In this document: one piece after another, positions 640 through 7,807 of the stretch
Position numbering within the stretch: position 1 is the first letter of the stretch
Layout: each line of letters opens with the position of its first letter
DNA from: Propionivibrio soli
GTDB taxonomy: Bacteria; Pseudomonadota; Gammaproteobacteria; Burkholderiales; Rhodocyclaceae
DNA length: 64,000 nucleotides
Direction of reading: 5' to 3'
Assembly: GCF_025770765.1 (NCBI RefSeq)
Contig: NZ_JANZKY010000007.1
Location: forward strand, 62,001 to 126,000
Position numbers and translations under genes: made by a program
Notes under the pieces: generated by a model
What the model saw: the letters and a program-made list of their open reading frames with translations, nothing else
The model's database searches: none
Told to the model about the DNA's origin: nothing

Positions 640-1719
640 CTATCCGATGAGGGCCACGGCCTTGATCTGCGCCCATATCGGCAGGCCTGGCCGCAGACCG
701 AGGTGCGCCGCCGAGCGCCGCGTGACGCGGGCAATCAACGGAGTTCCGGCGACGTCGAGCCGGACCAGTGCGAGGGCCGGATGTGCCTCGTCGGCTACGG
801 CGACCACATGCGCCAACAACGCGTTGAGGATGCTGGAATCGTCCCCATGGGTGTGGGCCAGACTGACGTCGCGGGCGAGGATGCGCACGCGTGCGCGGTG
901 ACCGACCGCCATGCCCGTGTCGCGAACCCAAACGCTGCCGCCGGCGAACGAGGCGCGTACGAGATGCCACTGCTCGTCGCGTTCAGCGACGACGGCGTCG
1001 ATGACCACGCCGGTGTCTTCTCCCAACCGGATCGGCAGGTCCAGCCGCGCCAGCGTTTCACCGAGCGGGCCGGAAGCGAGGGCGCGGCCGTCTTCCAGTA
1101 CCACGAGGTGATCGGCGATACGGGCGACCTCGTCGGGAGCATGGCTGACGTAGAGCACCGGCACTTCGAGCTCGTCATGCAACCGTTCGAGGTACGGGAG
1201 GATTTCCTGCTTGCGATCGTGATCGAGCGCCGCCAGCGGTTCGTCCAAAAGCAGTAGACGGGGGCTGACGGCGAGGGCGCGCGCGATCGCGACGCGGCTC
1301 CTTTCGCCCCCGGATAGACGGTCGGGTTTGCGTTCGAGCAGATGGCCGATGCCGAGCAGGTCGATCGCGTGTTCGAGGCTCACGCCTTGACCGTTGGCGA
1401 TGGTCTTCGCACGCCGCAAGCCATAACGTAGGTTGCCGAGTACCGAGAGATGCGGGAACAGGCTGGCTTCCTGGAACACGTAGCCGAGCGGGCGGCGATG
1501 CGGCGGTAACCAGGTGCGTTCGTCCTGCCACGTATCGCCGTTGATGCTCAACTTGCCGACGGGTGGCCGTTCCAGCCCCGCGATGCAGCGCAGCAGCGTC
1601 GTTTTGCCCGAACCGGAATGGCCGAACAGCACGGTCACGCCGCGTCCGGGCAGAGCAATATCGACATCCAGGCCAAAGCCGGGCCAGGCGAGCTGGAAGC
1701 GCGCTTGGATTCGGTTCAT
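640..1719 (-). CDS. modC: Molybdate ABC transporter ATP-binding protein ModC
   Basis: ATPase subunit of the ModABC molybdate importer, on the inner face of the membrane. The 359 residues show Walker [10 protein letters not shown] (about 34-42), the signature [15 protein letters not shown], Walker [13 protein letters not shown], and a C-terminal TOBE/MOP domain of about 70 residues (from around 290) that binds molybdate in this family. Length is normal for ModC. It begins one base after the modB stop, so the two are translationally coupled in a modE-modA-modB-modC order. Nitrogenase needs Mo for FeMo-co, which fits the adjacent nif genes. Confidence 0.96.
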
Positions 1720-1720
1720 C

Positions 1721-2398
1721 TCAGGCCCCCTTCCTTGCGCCCGGCCGCCAGGCGTAGAGCGCGAGCAGCACGAGGAAGGCGAATACCAGCATGACCGCCG
1801 ACAGCCGATGCGCCGACGCGTATTCGAACGCTTCGACGTGATCGTAGATTTGTACCGACGCGACGCGCGTGACGCCGGGGAGGTTGCCGCCGATCATCAG
1901 CACGACGCCGAACTCGCCGACAGTGTGCGCGAAGGTGAGCACCGACGCGGTCAAAAACCCCGGCAACGCCAGCGGCACGGCGACGGTGAAGAAGGCGTCG
2001 AGCGGCGAGGCACGCAGCGTCGCCGCTACCTCAAGCGGGCGTTCGCCGATGCTTTCGAACGCCGTCTGCAACGGTTGCACCATGAACGGCAGCGAGTAGA
2101 AGACGGAAGCGACGACGAGTCCCCAGAAGGTGAAGGGCAGCCGTCCGAGGCCAAGCGCTTCGGTCAACTGCCCGATCGGGCCGTGCGGTCCCATGACGAG
2201 TAGCAGGTAGAAGCCGAGCACCGATGGCGGCAGCACCAGCGGCAGGGCGACGATGGCGGCGATCGGTCCTTTCCAGCGGCAACGCGTACGTGCCAGCCAC
2301 CAGGCGATCGGCGTACCGATCAGCAGCAGGATCGTCGTGACGACCGCGGCCAAGCGGACGGTGAGCCAGAGAGCCTGAAGTTCGTCGGAGGTGAGCAT
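1721..2398 (-). CDS. modB: Molybdate ABC transporter permease ModB
   Basis: Membrane channel subunit of the molybdate importer. The 225-residue protein has about five hydrophobic helices, the first at about residues 10-35, and the EAA-type loop ([25 protein letters not shown]) that docks with ModC. Length is typical of ModB. It lies 30 bp after modA and one base before modC, as expected for one transport operon. Confidence 0.95.
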
Positions 2399-2428
2399 GC
2401 GTTGTAGTGGTGAGCCGCGCAGCGGCGG

Positions 2429-3223
<795 letters not shown>

Positions 3224-4030
3224 TTATGCGCCAACGGCGAGAATGACGTGCGAGGCCTTGATCAGCGCGCACGCACGCTTGCCTTCCTTGAGACCCAATT
3301 CGCGGATGCTCTCGTTGGTGATCGTCGCGACCACCAGCTTGCCGCCCGGTAGTTCAATGACGACTTCGCCGTTGATCGCGCCTTCGTGGCAGCGGACGAC
3401 GGTGCCGCACAGGCGATTGCGGGCGCTCGTCTTCAACGAATCGTCCGTAGTCACGATCACCCACGGCGCCTTTACCAGGGCGTAGGCTTCCATCCCTTCG
3501 ACGAGGCCGAGATGCTCGGTGCTTTCGTTGGTGATTACCGCCGCAATCTCGTCGCCGCCGCCGATGTCGAGGATGATCTCGGCGCTGATCGGTCCGTGCT
3601 TCACCGACTTGATCTTGCCGAGGAACTGGTTGCGGGCACTTGTTTTCATGTCGAATCTCCTGATGAGTTGGTAGTACTGTTCAAAGTCGTCCATGATCTG
3701 GCCGAGTGCCGCGAGCACTCTTTCACGTTCCTTCTCCAGGCGTCGGTAGGCGTTGACCACGCGACGTCCGTAGGTCGTGAGGTGCGTACCGCCGCCGTGG
3801 CGGCCGCCGGTCTGACGTTCCACGACCGGCTGCTCCGATAGGTTGTTCATGGTTTCAACGGCTTGCCAGGCCGCCTTGTAGCTCATTCCCATCGCCGCCG
3901 CCGCGCTGGTAATCGATCCGGTGGCGTCGATGCGCTCAAGTAGTTCCAGGTGATCCCAACGCCGCCCGCGAGGAAGCGGCAAGGATGGCGCTTTCGCCGT
4001 GGTTTTCATCGCGGTTGGCGCTGTGTTCAT
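3224..4030 (-). CDS. modE: Molybdate-responsive regulator ModE
   Basis: Transcription factor that binds molybdate and represses mod genes, and in other bacteria activates Mo-enzyme genes. The winged-helix domain (about residues 20-95 of the longer reading) has the LysR-like HTH SITSAAAAMGMSYKAAWQAVETM. It is followed by two tandem TOBE/MOP domains starting SARNQFLGKI and SARNRLCGTV, the normal ModE layout. I chose the ATG at 4030 (268 residues) because AAAGGA lies about 10 bases upstream. A GTG at 4054 would add 8 residues but would reach the ModE-type box at 4061-4085. That box just upstream implies autoregulation. Confidence 0.93.
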   Translation of the reverse strand: MNTAPTAMKTTAKAPSLPLPRGRRWDHLELLERIDATGSITSAAAAMGMSYKAAWQAVETMNNLSEQPVVERQTGGRHGGGTHLTTYGRRVVNAYRRLEKERERVLAALGQIMDDFEQYYQLIRRFDMKTSARNQFLGKIKSVKHGPISAEIILDIGGGDEIAAVITNESTEHLGLVEGMEAYALVKAPWVIVTTDDSLKTSARNRLCGTVVRCHEGAINGEVVIELPGGKLVVATITNESIRELGLKEGKRACALIKASHVILAVGA

Positions 4031-4085: not shown

Positions 4086-4122
4086 CTAGCAACAAGAATG
4101 CCGGAATTCGAACCCGGCTGTC

Positions 4123-4731
4123 CTAAAGTGCAACATCCTCCGGACCGAAACAGAGCCGAAAGTCGCAGCAGTCGGCGCAATGGGGCGACTTGCAGATGAG
4201 CACGCCGGCACGCTCGCAGAGTTGGCGGTAGAAGAATTTCTTCCACTTCATGTCGTTTACGTTCAAGGCAGCGAGCGTCGGGAAGTGCGCCCGCATCAGC
4301 GCCGAAAGAACGGCGCGGTTTGGCAATCCCATGTCCTGCCAGAGATGGTTCTCGCCCATCGCCGCGGTGGCGATCGCGCAGGCGAGCCATCTTTCGCCGT
4401 CGTCGTCGGTCGCTCGGTGATCGAGCAGCAACGCGACCAGATCGTCGAATTCGTCGAATGCCTCGAATCCGTCGACCGCGTGGATCTCTTGGACGCCTTC
4501 GTGGGTAAAGGTGGGCCCGGAATCATTGTCAGGGACCCCGCTCGCGCCGTCGGCCGAGAAATACTCGTCAAGCATGGATCGGAAGTCCGCCTCGCCGAGG
4601 CCACGGATCAGCGGCCGGCGATTGCAATGAAGGGATTGCCGGATGACGCCGGCAAACGCGAGCGCTGCCGGGTCGTCGAGGTATCGCACGCGAAGCCTCA
4701 ATCCGGTCGAGCCGGTGTTTGCGGAAGGCAT
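4123..4731 (-). CDS. nifQ: Nitrogenase molybdenum-donor protein NifQ
   Basis: NifQ carries an Fe-S cluster and delivers Mo to the NifEN/NifH complex during FeMo-co assembly. The diagnostic C-terminal motif C-x4-C-x2-C-x5-C is intact ([15 protein letters not shown], about 12 residues before the end), preceded by the family's [16 protein letters not shown] block. The open frame extends to ATGs at 4776 and 4833. I chose the ATG at 4731 (202 residues) because a -24/-12 promoter predicts transcription from about 4777, which would exclude 4833 and make 4776 leaderless. None of the starts has a strong ribosome site, so the N terminus is uncertain. It diverges from nifE and is followed by modE. Confidence 0.9.
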
Positions 4732-4787
4732 AGGGTCCGGCGCGGTGGCGCGCAGCGATGTTTGCCAAGTCTCCATGTCCGGGCACG

Positions 4788-4803
4788 AGCAAGAAACCTT
4801 CCA
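4788..4803 (-). promoter_or_regulatory. Putative sigma-54 promoter of nifQ
   Basis: On the minus strand the sequence reads TGGAAGG-TTTC-TTGCT, with GG and GC exactly 10 bases apart. The consensus is TGGCACG-N4-TTGCW. The -12 element is perfect and the -24 element matches 5 of 7. Predicted transcription start is about 4777. NifA-type sites lie 68-125 bp upstream of that start. Confidence 0.65.
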
Positions 4804-4844
4804 GGCGGAAATACCCACCCCAAGCCGCTGCATCGTCGTTCGAA

Positions 4845-4860
4845 TGTCGGGTTTCGCACA
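4845..4860. promoter_or_regulatory. NifA upstream activator site 1 (TGT-N10-ACA)
   Basis: A perfect TGT-N10-ACA, the binding site of the nif enhancer protein NifA. It lies 68-83 bp upstream of the predicted nifQ start and 111-126 bp upstream of the predicted nifE start, within normal enhancer range for both divergent promoters. Confidence 0.8.
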
Positions 4861-4886
4861 ATGCGGCGTTCCGCGGGCGCGGTGTC

Positions 4887-4902
4887 TGTCGCGATCGGAA
4901 CA
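4887..4902. promoter_or_regulatory. NifA upstream activator site 2 (TGT-N10-ACA)
   Basis: A second perfect TGT-N10-ACA, 42 bp (about four helical turns) from site 1 and so on the same face of the DNA. It lies 69-84 bp upstream of the predicted nifE start and 110-125 bp upstream of the predicted nifQ start. Confidence 0.8.
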
Positions 4903-4944
4903 AAATCCGCAGCACTCTTGGCTTCCCGCTCAGGATTCCGGCCG

Positions 4945-4960
4945 TGGCACGGGCATTGCA
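4945..4960 (+). promoter_or_regulatory. Sigma-54 promoter of the nifENX operon
   Basis: TGGCACG-GGCA-TTGCA is a full match to the -24/-12 consensus, with GG and GC 10 bases apart. The predicted start is about 4971, so the leader is only about 14 bases and the GAAAGGA ribosome site of nifE (4972-4978) lies at its 5' end. Confidence 0.92.
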
Positions 4961-4984
4961 TTGAGCCGTGCGAAAGGATTCCGC

Positions 4985-6391
4985 ATGAAGACGAGCGAAA
5001 TAGCGGTCCTGCTCAACGAGCCGGCCTGCGCCCACAATGCGAAGGAGAAATCGGGCTGCTCCCGTCCGAAGCCGGGAGCCACGGCGGGTGGTTGCTCGTT
5101 CGACGGCGCGCAGATCGCGCTGCTGCCGATCGCCGACGTTGCCCACATCGTGCATGGGCCGATCGCGTGTGCCGGCAACTCGTGGGACAACCGTGGAGCG
5201 CGCACGACGGGCCGTGCGCTATATCGCGTCGGCATGACGACGGACCTCACGGAACAGGATATTGTCATGGGCCGAGGGGAGAAGCGGCTTTTCCATGCCA
5301 TCCGGCAGGCCGTCGACACCTACGCCCCGGAAGCCGTCTTCGTCTATGCGACCTGCGTGACGGCGATGATCGGCGACGACCTGGAGGCCGTCTGCAAAGC
5401 GGCATCGGGGCATTGGGGCGTTCCCGTCGTGCCGGTGGATTGCGCCGGGTTCTATGGCACGAAGAATCTGGGCAACCGCATCGCCGGCGAGGCGATCGTG
5501 CGGCACGTGATCGGCACACGCGAGCCGGACCCCGTACCGGAATCCGCGCAGCGGCCGGGAATCCAAGTGCACGACGTGAGCCTGATCGGCGAATACAACA
5601 TCGCCGGCGAGTTCTGGCAGGTCGCGCCGCTCTTCGACGAGCTGGGCCTGCGCATCATCGGCTCGCTTTCGGGCGACGCGCGTTATCGCGATATCCAGAC
5701 GATGCACCGGGCCGAAGCGAGCATGGTGGTGTGCGCCAAGGCGCTGCTCAATGTCGCGCGCAAGGTCCAGGGACGCTGGCGCGTGCCTTTTTTTGAAGGC
5801 AGCTTCTATGGGGTCGCCGATACGTCGCAGGCGTTTCGCGATTTCGCCCGTCTCATCGGCGATGACGATCTCTCGAAGCGCACCGAGGCGCTGATCGCGC
5901 GCGAGGAAGCGGCGATCGACGCACAGCTCGAACCGTGGCGCGAGCGATTGCGCGGTAAACGCGCCTTGCTGTACACCGGCGGCGTCAAGTCCTGGTCGGT
6001 CGTGTCGGCGCTTCAGGACCTCGGCATGGAGGTCGTGGCCACGGGCACCCGCAAGTCGACGGCGGAGGACAAGGCGCGCATCCGCGAGTTGATGGGCGAC
6101 GATGCACGGATGCTCGACGAGGGAGGCCCCGCGACGTTGCTCGGCACCTACGAGGAGTACGGCGCGGACATCCTGATCGCCGGCGGCCGCAATCTGTACA
6201 CGGCGCTCAAAGCGCGCATTCCCTTTCTCGATATCAACCAGGAACGGGAATTCGGTTACGCAGGCTATGCCGGCATGCTCGAACTTGCGCGTCAGCTCGC
6301 GCTGACCATCGAGAGCCCCGTATGGCGGGCGGTACGCCGGCCGGCGCCGTGGGCGGCGGAACGCGTGGCGGGAATTCCGTTGAACGCCTAA
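4985..6391 (+). CDS. nifE: Nitrogenase FeMo-cofactor scaffold subunit NifE
   Basis: Alpha-type subunit of the NifEN scaffold, on which the NifB-co precursor matures into FeMo-co. The ATG at 4985 gives 468 residues, normal for NifE, and is preceded by GAAAGGA. The reading frame stays open upstream to 4643, but that part overlaps the divergent promoter region and nifQ. Conserved cluster-ligand cysteines are visible at about residues 37 (GGCSFDGA) and 62 ([11 protein letters not shown]), and the [12 protein letters not shown] block follows. NifE resembles NifD. It is the first gene of the nif operon driven by the promoter at 4945. Confidence 0.97.
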
Positions 6392-6424: not shown

Positions 6425-7807
6425 ATGGCCGAAGTGATCAAGCGCAGCAAAGCGCTGGCGGTAAACCCGCTCAAGGCGAGCCAGCCCGTCGGCGCCGCAC
6501 TCGCCTTCCTCGGGTTGCGCCACGCGATCCCGATGCTGCATGGCTCGCAGGGATGCACGGCATTCGGCAAGGTCTTCTTCGTGCGCCATTTCCGCGAGCC
6601 GATTCCACTGCAAACGACGGCAATGGATCAGGTATCGACCGTCATGAGCGCGGATGAAAATGTCATCGAAGGGCTGCGGACGCTGTGTGAAAAGAACCGG
6701 CCCGACGTCATCGGACTGCCCACCACCTGCCTCTCGGAGGCGCAGGGTACGGATATCCGACGCCTGGTCCGCGAGTTCCGCGCGCGCCATCCCGAGTTTG
6801 ACCGCGTGTCGGTCGTTCCGGTCAACACGCCGGACTACGTGGGATGCCTGGAATCGGGGTTCGCCTTGGCGCTCGAAGCCATCATCGATGATCTTGTCCC
6901 CCAGACGCGCCATGGGGGGCGTCGTCGGCGGCAGGTGAACATCCTTGCGTCGTCGATGCTCACGCCGGGCGACGTCGAGGCGATCAAGGAGTGGGTCGAG
7001 ACATTTGGCCTGCGACCGGTGGTTCTGCCGGATATCGGCGACGCGCTCGACGGACATTTGATCGACAAGGCGTTCAGCGCGCTGACCATCGGCGGCACGC
7101 CGCGTTCGGAGATCGAGGCGATGGGCGATTCCGTTGCCACCCTGGTCGTCGGCCGCTCGCTGGCGCGGGCCGCCGACCTGCTCAAGGAGAAAACCGGGGT
7201 GCCGGACTACCGTTTCGACCATCTGATGGGCCTGGATGCCGGCGACGCCTTCACGCAAATACTCGCCGACCTCTCCGGGCAGCCGGTTCCCGAACGGATC
7301 GAGCGGCAACGTGCGCAATTGCAGGACGCGATGGTCGACACGCATTTCATGCTCGGCTTCACGCGCATCGCGCTCGCGCTTGACCCGGACCTGCTGCTCG
7401 GTTTTGCGTCCTTTTTCTCGGGGCTGGGCGCCGAAATCGTCGCCGCCGTCGCTCCCGCGCGTGCCGAGGCGCTCGCCGACATCCTCTGCGATGCCGTCCA
7501 GATCGGCGACCTCGAGGACCTGGAAAACCTGGCACGGCGTACGGGCGCCCAACTCGTCGTATCCAATTCGCACGCCGTGCAGGTCGCCGAGCGCCTCAGC
7601 ATCCCTCTGCTGCGTGCCGGCTTCCCGCAGTACGACTGCGTCGGCGGCTATGCACGCGGCTGGGTGGGATACCGTCATGCGCGGCAGACGCTGTTCGACA
7701 TCGCCAACCTCATCCTGGGGCAGCACCATGGCATCCCGGCCTATCGATCGATCTACCGCAACGAACCGGAACCGGCGCGTGCTGGCGCTGGCCTGGCCCG
7801 GCACTGA
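6425..7807 (+). CDS. nifN: Nitrogenase FeMo-cofactor scaffold subunit NifN
   Basis: Beta-type partner of NifE in the FeMo-co scaffold, related to NifK. It has 460 residues, with the family landmarks [18 protein letters not shown] near the N terminus, [21 protein letters not shown] with its cluster cysteine, and the [11 protein letters not shown] block. A GGGAGG/GAGGAG ribosome region precedes the ATG, 33 bp after nifE. Confidence 0.96.

Follow-up and report, generated by a model that had tools for sequence, protein, structure and literature searches.

The window, by which the whole analysed stretch of 64 kb is meant, comprises bases 62001 to 126000 of contig C34 in a genome of 4.76 Mb. Nif genes diverge here, with nifE (4985..6391, plus strand; TIGR01283 with 683 bits against a cut-off of 505) and nifN (6425..7807, plus strand; TIGR01285, above cut-off) running rightward from 4985, and nifQ (4123..4776, minus strand; Pfam PF04891, 4e-49) leading leftward to a modE-like gene and then to modA, modB, and modC. 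The names nifE and nifQ used in a preliminary description of this DNA hold, as shown by the TIGR01283 and PF04891 matches, respectively; none of the NCBIfam models matched the nifQ protein. Among the matches listed, the best named ones for NifE belonged to betaproteobacterial metagenome-assembled genomes, several of them Rhodocyclaceae. The modE-like gene 3' of nifQ (3224..4030, minus strand) contains PF00126 and two TOBE stretches, its Mop match is above the cut-off, and its ModE_repress score of 98.0 is just under the cut-off of 98.5. The following modA, modB, and modC (640..3208, minus strand) are all above cut-off with TIGR01256, TIGR02141, and TIGR02142. Just past nifQ on the minus strand, a stem at 4088-4118 (GCCGGGTTCGAATTCCGGC) followed by a T-rich tail resembles a terminator, and in our own reading the same stem also looks like a tRNA T-arm. 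A tRNA gene search across the window found none, and the core of the stem had no second copy in the genome at two or fewer mismatches. The stem is overlapped by a sigma-54-like site with a score of 29; in relatives, such a site between nifQ and modE scored only 16.8 to 23 in eight of nine cases and 27.3 in locus L035, with L034 cut by a contig end in this comparison. Due to the terminator-like stem and the sigma-54-like site between nifQ and modE, co-transcription of nifQ and modE-modABC as a single unit is no more than a possibility.

Two sigma-54 promoters of the -24/-12 type were found between nifQ and nifE, divergent as had been claimed earlier. The nifQ promoter is located at 4788..4803 on the minus strand (TGGAAGGTTTCTTGCT, TGGAAGG-N4-TTGCT; predicted start about 4777) and the nifE promoter at 4945..4960 on the plus strand (TGGCACGGGCATTGCA, TGGCACG-N4-TTGCA; predicted start about 4971). 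Starts were placed 12 bases past the C at -12, and the weights of the sigma-54 score were set by hand from the published consensus, which carries GG and GC in the -24/-12 elements and resembles TGGCACG-N4-TTGCW in the relevant passage of PMC4999443. The nifE promoter matches all fixed consensus bases and the nifQ promoter has two mismatches in the -24 element (TGGAAGG vs TGGCACG). The in-frame ATG 4776 directly adjoins the predicted nifQ transcript start, so that nifQ would be translated from the alternative ATG 4731, or else its transcript would be nearly leaderless. By itself the sigma-54 motif is not rare in the window: TGG-N3-G-N4-TTGCW matches only at TGGAAGGTTTCTTGCT and TGGCACGGGCATTGCA in the 64 kb where 0.93 matches are expected, and two or more matches were obtained in 24 of 100 shuffles.

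Between the two promoters lie two perfect TGT-N10-ACA sites, 42 bp apart as had been described, namely the nifQ-proximal NifA site 1 at 4845..4860 (TGTCGGGTTTCGCACA) and the nifE-proximal NifA site 2 at 4887..4902 (TGTCGCGATCGGAACA), with a spacer of 26 bp (4861..4886). The centre of site 1 (4852.5) is 75.5 bp from the predicted nifQ start and 118.5 bp from that of nifE, and the centre of site 2 (4894.5) is 76.5 bp from the predicted nifE start and 117.5 bp from that of nifQ. The promoter-to-site distances and the coinciding midpoints of sites and starts reported in the preliminary description are arithmetically correct to within one base. Over the whole window TGT-N10-ACA occurs at chance density (6 matches vs 5.87 expected). 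For the stretch separating the two -24 elements the expectation is 0.0116 perfect sites, and the Poisson probability of two or more is 6.6e-5, a value applying to a region picked after the fact. The grouping of the motifs, unlike either motif singly, is rare by chance.

One match to nifA above the cut-off and two rpoN genes above the family cut-off (C5:114931-116316 and C31:140138-141571) are present in the genome. A scan of 124 kb of contig C34 yielded 23 sigma-54-like sites with a score of at least 28, five of them preceded by a perfect NifA site at no more than 260 bp: the nifE and nifQ promoters and, on the same contig, those of nifL-nifA (24039), nifB (35139), and nifH (43298), for which the proteins are above curated cut-offs. 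The nifB promoter likewise has two perfect NifA sites upstream, at distances of 98.5 and 131.5 bp and 33 bp from each other. A loose form of the site-plus-promoter pattern applied genome-wide was discarded, with 38 matches including both pairs of the window vs 36 for the reversed-pattern control.

For comparison, NifE was searched in 28 genomes of the genus, of which 17 had a match and 11 an orthologue-like one (at least 75 percent identity), and NifQ in 150 genomes of the family, of which 76 had a match and from which 30 loci were kept; from a named collection the best 80 of at least 580 loci were retained. The sample overall represents the nearer relatives and contains 105 loci in which the nifE start was usable, or 93 distinct loci after subtraction of 12 copies. 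L001 is a copy of the window, L004 of L037, and L005 of L036. In the genus nifQ diverges from nifE in 10 of 11 loci, two of these ten (L039 and L040) being near copies. All ten are found on one side of one branch with a support of 95/74 in a midpoint-rooted NifE tree of 44 loci, a topology which allows a single origin of the arrangement. Locus L043 of the same genus has a nifE that branches separately from the rest, possibly acquired, no adjoining nifQ, and a single NifA site; the idea of a natural loss of site 1 in L043 was ruled out by the placement of its NifE elsewhere in the tree. Altogether 34 distinct loci with divergent nifQ and nifE were counted, including L014, which yields no promoter pair, and L065, left unscored with a gap of more than 800 bp; a modA or modE match occurred in the stretch examined in 19 of the 34.

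Both promoters and exactly two perfect NifA sites are present in all ten divergent loci of the genus. The spacing in relatives, a check proposed in the preliminary description, bears out the arrangement of the window, with the sites 42 bp apart and a spacer of 26 bp in nine of ten loci, and 41 and 25 bp, respectively, in L035. The spacer sequence is poorly kept (mean identity 0.38 over eight loci) and the inner ten bases of the two NifA sites are better kept than the spacer (0.67 and 0.81 over nine loci). The core promoter of nifQ reads TGGAARG-N4-TTGCT in nine of the ten loci, with TGGACAG-N4-TTGCT in L036, and that of nifE contains TGGCAC..TTGC in nine of ten, mostly as TGGCAC...TTGCA. Among the sampled Beta- and Gammaproteobacteria the site upstream of nifE is conserved: in 92 of the 93 distinct loci from the nearer relatives the predicted nifE start is preceded at 50-250 bp by a perfect site, and any such site appeared in 5 percent of shuffled 300-bp upstream regions (two-base-block shuffles). 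The sole miss, L014, has a NifA site and a -12 element that breaks the rule. The site is located at 76.5-79.5 bp in 55 of the 92 loci, with or without a divergent nifQ. It is found in all 59 loci without a divergent nifQ, ten of which have less than 3 kb upstream, where a more distant divergent nifQ could go unseen, and 41 of the 59 have it at 76.5-79.5 bp. Site 2 is thus the standard nifE site. Small P values for a helical periodicity of the nifE site distances were not used, the cluster at 77-79 bp, common by descent, dominating this analysis. A -24/-12 element, an upstream TGT-N10-ACA site, nifA and rpoN genes, and conservation in orthologues, the features by which NifA-activated sigma-54 promoters are recognised, were all found, and with this conservation, and with nifA and rpoN both encoded in the genome, control of both promoters by NifA and sigma-54 is well supported.

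How the two sites are divided between the promoters is a separate matter. The narrower explanation, that each promoter uses its own proximal site only and that the neighbouring sites are independent with no shared platform, is the best of the alternatives and may be given somewhat less than an even chance. It agrees with the NifA site at a customary distance from each promoter, and with L020 and L069, where nifQ has a separate site at 98.5 bp and nifE a pair of its own at about 80 and 100 bp. It also agrees with the lack of a site at 110-130 bp in all of the 59 loci without a divergent nifQ, from which it would follow that site 1 goes with nifQ. Against it stand the loci with a single site. 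Among the 34 distinct divergent loci, the promoters flank a single perfect site in 19 and the pair of the genus in ten, while L126 with two and L020 and L069 with three sites each are loci with long regions. In 17 of the 19 single-site loci, and hence in 17 of 34 divergent ones, the lone site is 50-150 bp from both predicted starts, a working distance for either promoter, and one NifA site likely serves both promoters in many relatives. Of 24 divergent loci from outside the genus, 17 have a sigma-54 site pointing leftward (score of at least 25) at 50-150 bp from the NifA site nearest to nifE, vs 2 of the 59 loci without a divergent nifQ (L121 and L127) and 4.6 percent of shuffles. The seven loci lacking it are L014, L018, L019, L020, L065, L069, and L126; in L018 and L019 a mere 42 bp or so separates the sole site from the best candidate nifQ promoter. 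From these counts it is plausible that both promoters draw on the sites between them. Of the single NifA platform proposed in the preliminary description the shared use can therefore be kept as plausible, while its mirror symmetry is not conserved.

Two or more sites before nifE were found in 13 of 33 loci with a divergent nifQ and in 3 of 59 without (Fisher P 6e-5, a value which overstates independence with 10 of the 13 loci coming from one genus); L020, L069, and L126 are the three such divergent loci outside the genus. In these three long nifQ-nifE regions the nifE site pair is 19-20 bp apart, about two helical turns. Within the genus the 42-bp pair stays intact where one promoter is displaced, another point against independent sites: in L036 the candidate nifQ promoter is about 100 bp further off (177.5 bp from the nearer NifA site) and a poorer match (25.0 vs 29.0), and in L037 and L038 the nifE start is about 100 bp further off (181.5 bp). 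These three loci hint at the two sites acting as one unit. A constraint on the 42-bp spacing is suggested, and only suggested, by the exact length kept in nine of ten loci despite a spacer identity of 0.38. A hand count of length changes on the NifE tree gave one (of 1 bp) for the middle segment compared with three or more on the nifE side and four or more on the nifQ side, which was judged not significant as the middle segment is shorter. A tentative and rather doubtful extension would be that the pair of NifA sites acts as a single bidirectional enhancer unit, its spacing held at four helical turns and a phased NifA pair driving both promoters, kept even with one promoter about 100 bp further off. 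If true, one NifA assembly would drive both molybdenum delivery and the scaffold of the iron-molybdenum cofactor.

The preliminary description had gone further and proposed a mirror-symmetric platform designed to set a fixed expression ratio of nifQ to nifEN. Site-pair and start midpoints indeed differ by -0.5 bp in the window, and by -1 bp in L035. The offsets in the remaining eight genus loci are +5, +50.5, -58, -58, and -6 bp (the last in four genomes), and as a conserved design the symmetry fails. The nearer site is 65.5 (six loci), 75.5, 87.5, 88.5, or 177.5 bp from the nifQ start, thus 65-89 bp in nine of ten loci, and 76.5-77.5 (seven loci), 90.5, or 181.5 bp (two loci) from the nifE start. 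Of the ten loci only the window has near distances agreeing within 1 bp on the two sides, and L035 joins it at a tolerance of 2 bp; random pairing of distances gave agreement within 1 and 2 bp in 2 and 8 percent of cases for the genus and in 6 and 10 percent for the wider set. With similar site distances at two divergent promoters the midpoints of sites and starts coincide automatically, and the mirror symmetry is unremarkable, arising once each promoter has its activator site at a usual distance. A fixed ratio is not borne out either, as the distances vary separately on each side and the core promoters of nifQ and nifE differ in a conserved way, so that equal distances alone would not give equal output. 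A designed symmetric platform is accordingly very improbable. Equally improbable are chance matches or sites of another regulator, a notion in line with the chance density of the motif window-wide but opposed by the retention of the sites across the genus and of the nifE site across the sampled Beta- and Gammaproteobacteria.

The preferred reading is that two ordinary NifA-activated, sigma-54-dependent promoters stand back to back and are, very probably, coordinately induced from the sites between them. In each, the centre of a NifA site would precede the predicted start by the customary distance of about 76 bp, and the site of the other promoter, about 42 bp further, would be four helical turns away and hence on about the same face of the DNA. 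From the positions of the motifs we infer that NifA bound at a site could touch sigma-54 polymerase at either promoter by looping of the short DNA between. Each promoter may use its near site alone, or the pair may act together. Site 1 would accompany the divergent nifQ promoter in the genus group, possibly as a later gain beside the standard nifE site. The predicted output is a coordinate induction, under nitrogen-fixing conditions, of nifQ, encoding the molybdenum donor NifQ, and of nifEN, encoding the cofactor scaffold, and perhaps of modE-modABC behind nifQ. In a number of Rhodocyclales-like bacteria the gene of the molybdenum donor would thereby be tied to those of the iron-molybdenum cofactor scaffold. 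The loci with one site, paired sites, separate sites, and displaced promoters form a natural series in which enhancer sharing and helical spacing could be tested. The understanding of nif promoters is unchanged, the arrangement being of a known kind and of low surprise; what deserves mild notice is that the 42-bp pair has been preserved and that, outside the genus, a nifQ promoter lies close enough to use the nifE site in 17 of 24 divergent loci.

A divergent pair is also formed by nifH and fixA of S. meliloti. No title or abstract in the open-access literature searched is on a divergent nifQ-nifE control region. The nearest likeness to the nifE side is seen in Azoarcus sp. BH72, where a predicted RpoN site and tandem NifA sites lie upstream of the NifA-regulated nifE (PMC3916325), as in the window; the main text of that paper does not contain the terms nifQ or divergent, and the site spacing is given in its supplement. 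The nifE promoter of R. capsulatus is described in a section of PMC6925177 as having two possible NifA sites, and with NifA and RpoN it likewise places nifE and nifQ under one NifA control, but nifQ is there inside the nifENX operon whereas that of the window is divergent. The M. loti nifQ has no NifA-type promoter of its own according to the pertinent part of PMC3538637, yet it is poorly expressed in a nifA2 mutant. On the side of molybdate transport, nifQ and modABC of H. seropedicae are stated in PMC3912193 to form one operon; as in the window nifQ adjoins molybdate transport genes within the nif cluster, but nifQ-modABC is located downstream of the nifHDKENX operon. According to a passage of PMC4999443, which gives both consensus motifs, modABC is NifA-regulated in some Alphaproteobacteria. 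The architecture itself has a counterpart in A. vinelandii, where Avin_02430 and Avin_02450 are reported in PMC9542535 to be served by sigma-54 promoters that diverge, depend on VnfA1, and flank a ChIP peak. This is likewise a divergent sigma-54 promoter pair with an activator signal between and both promoters activator-dependent, although the activator is the paralogous VnfA1 and the genes are others.
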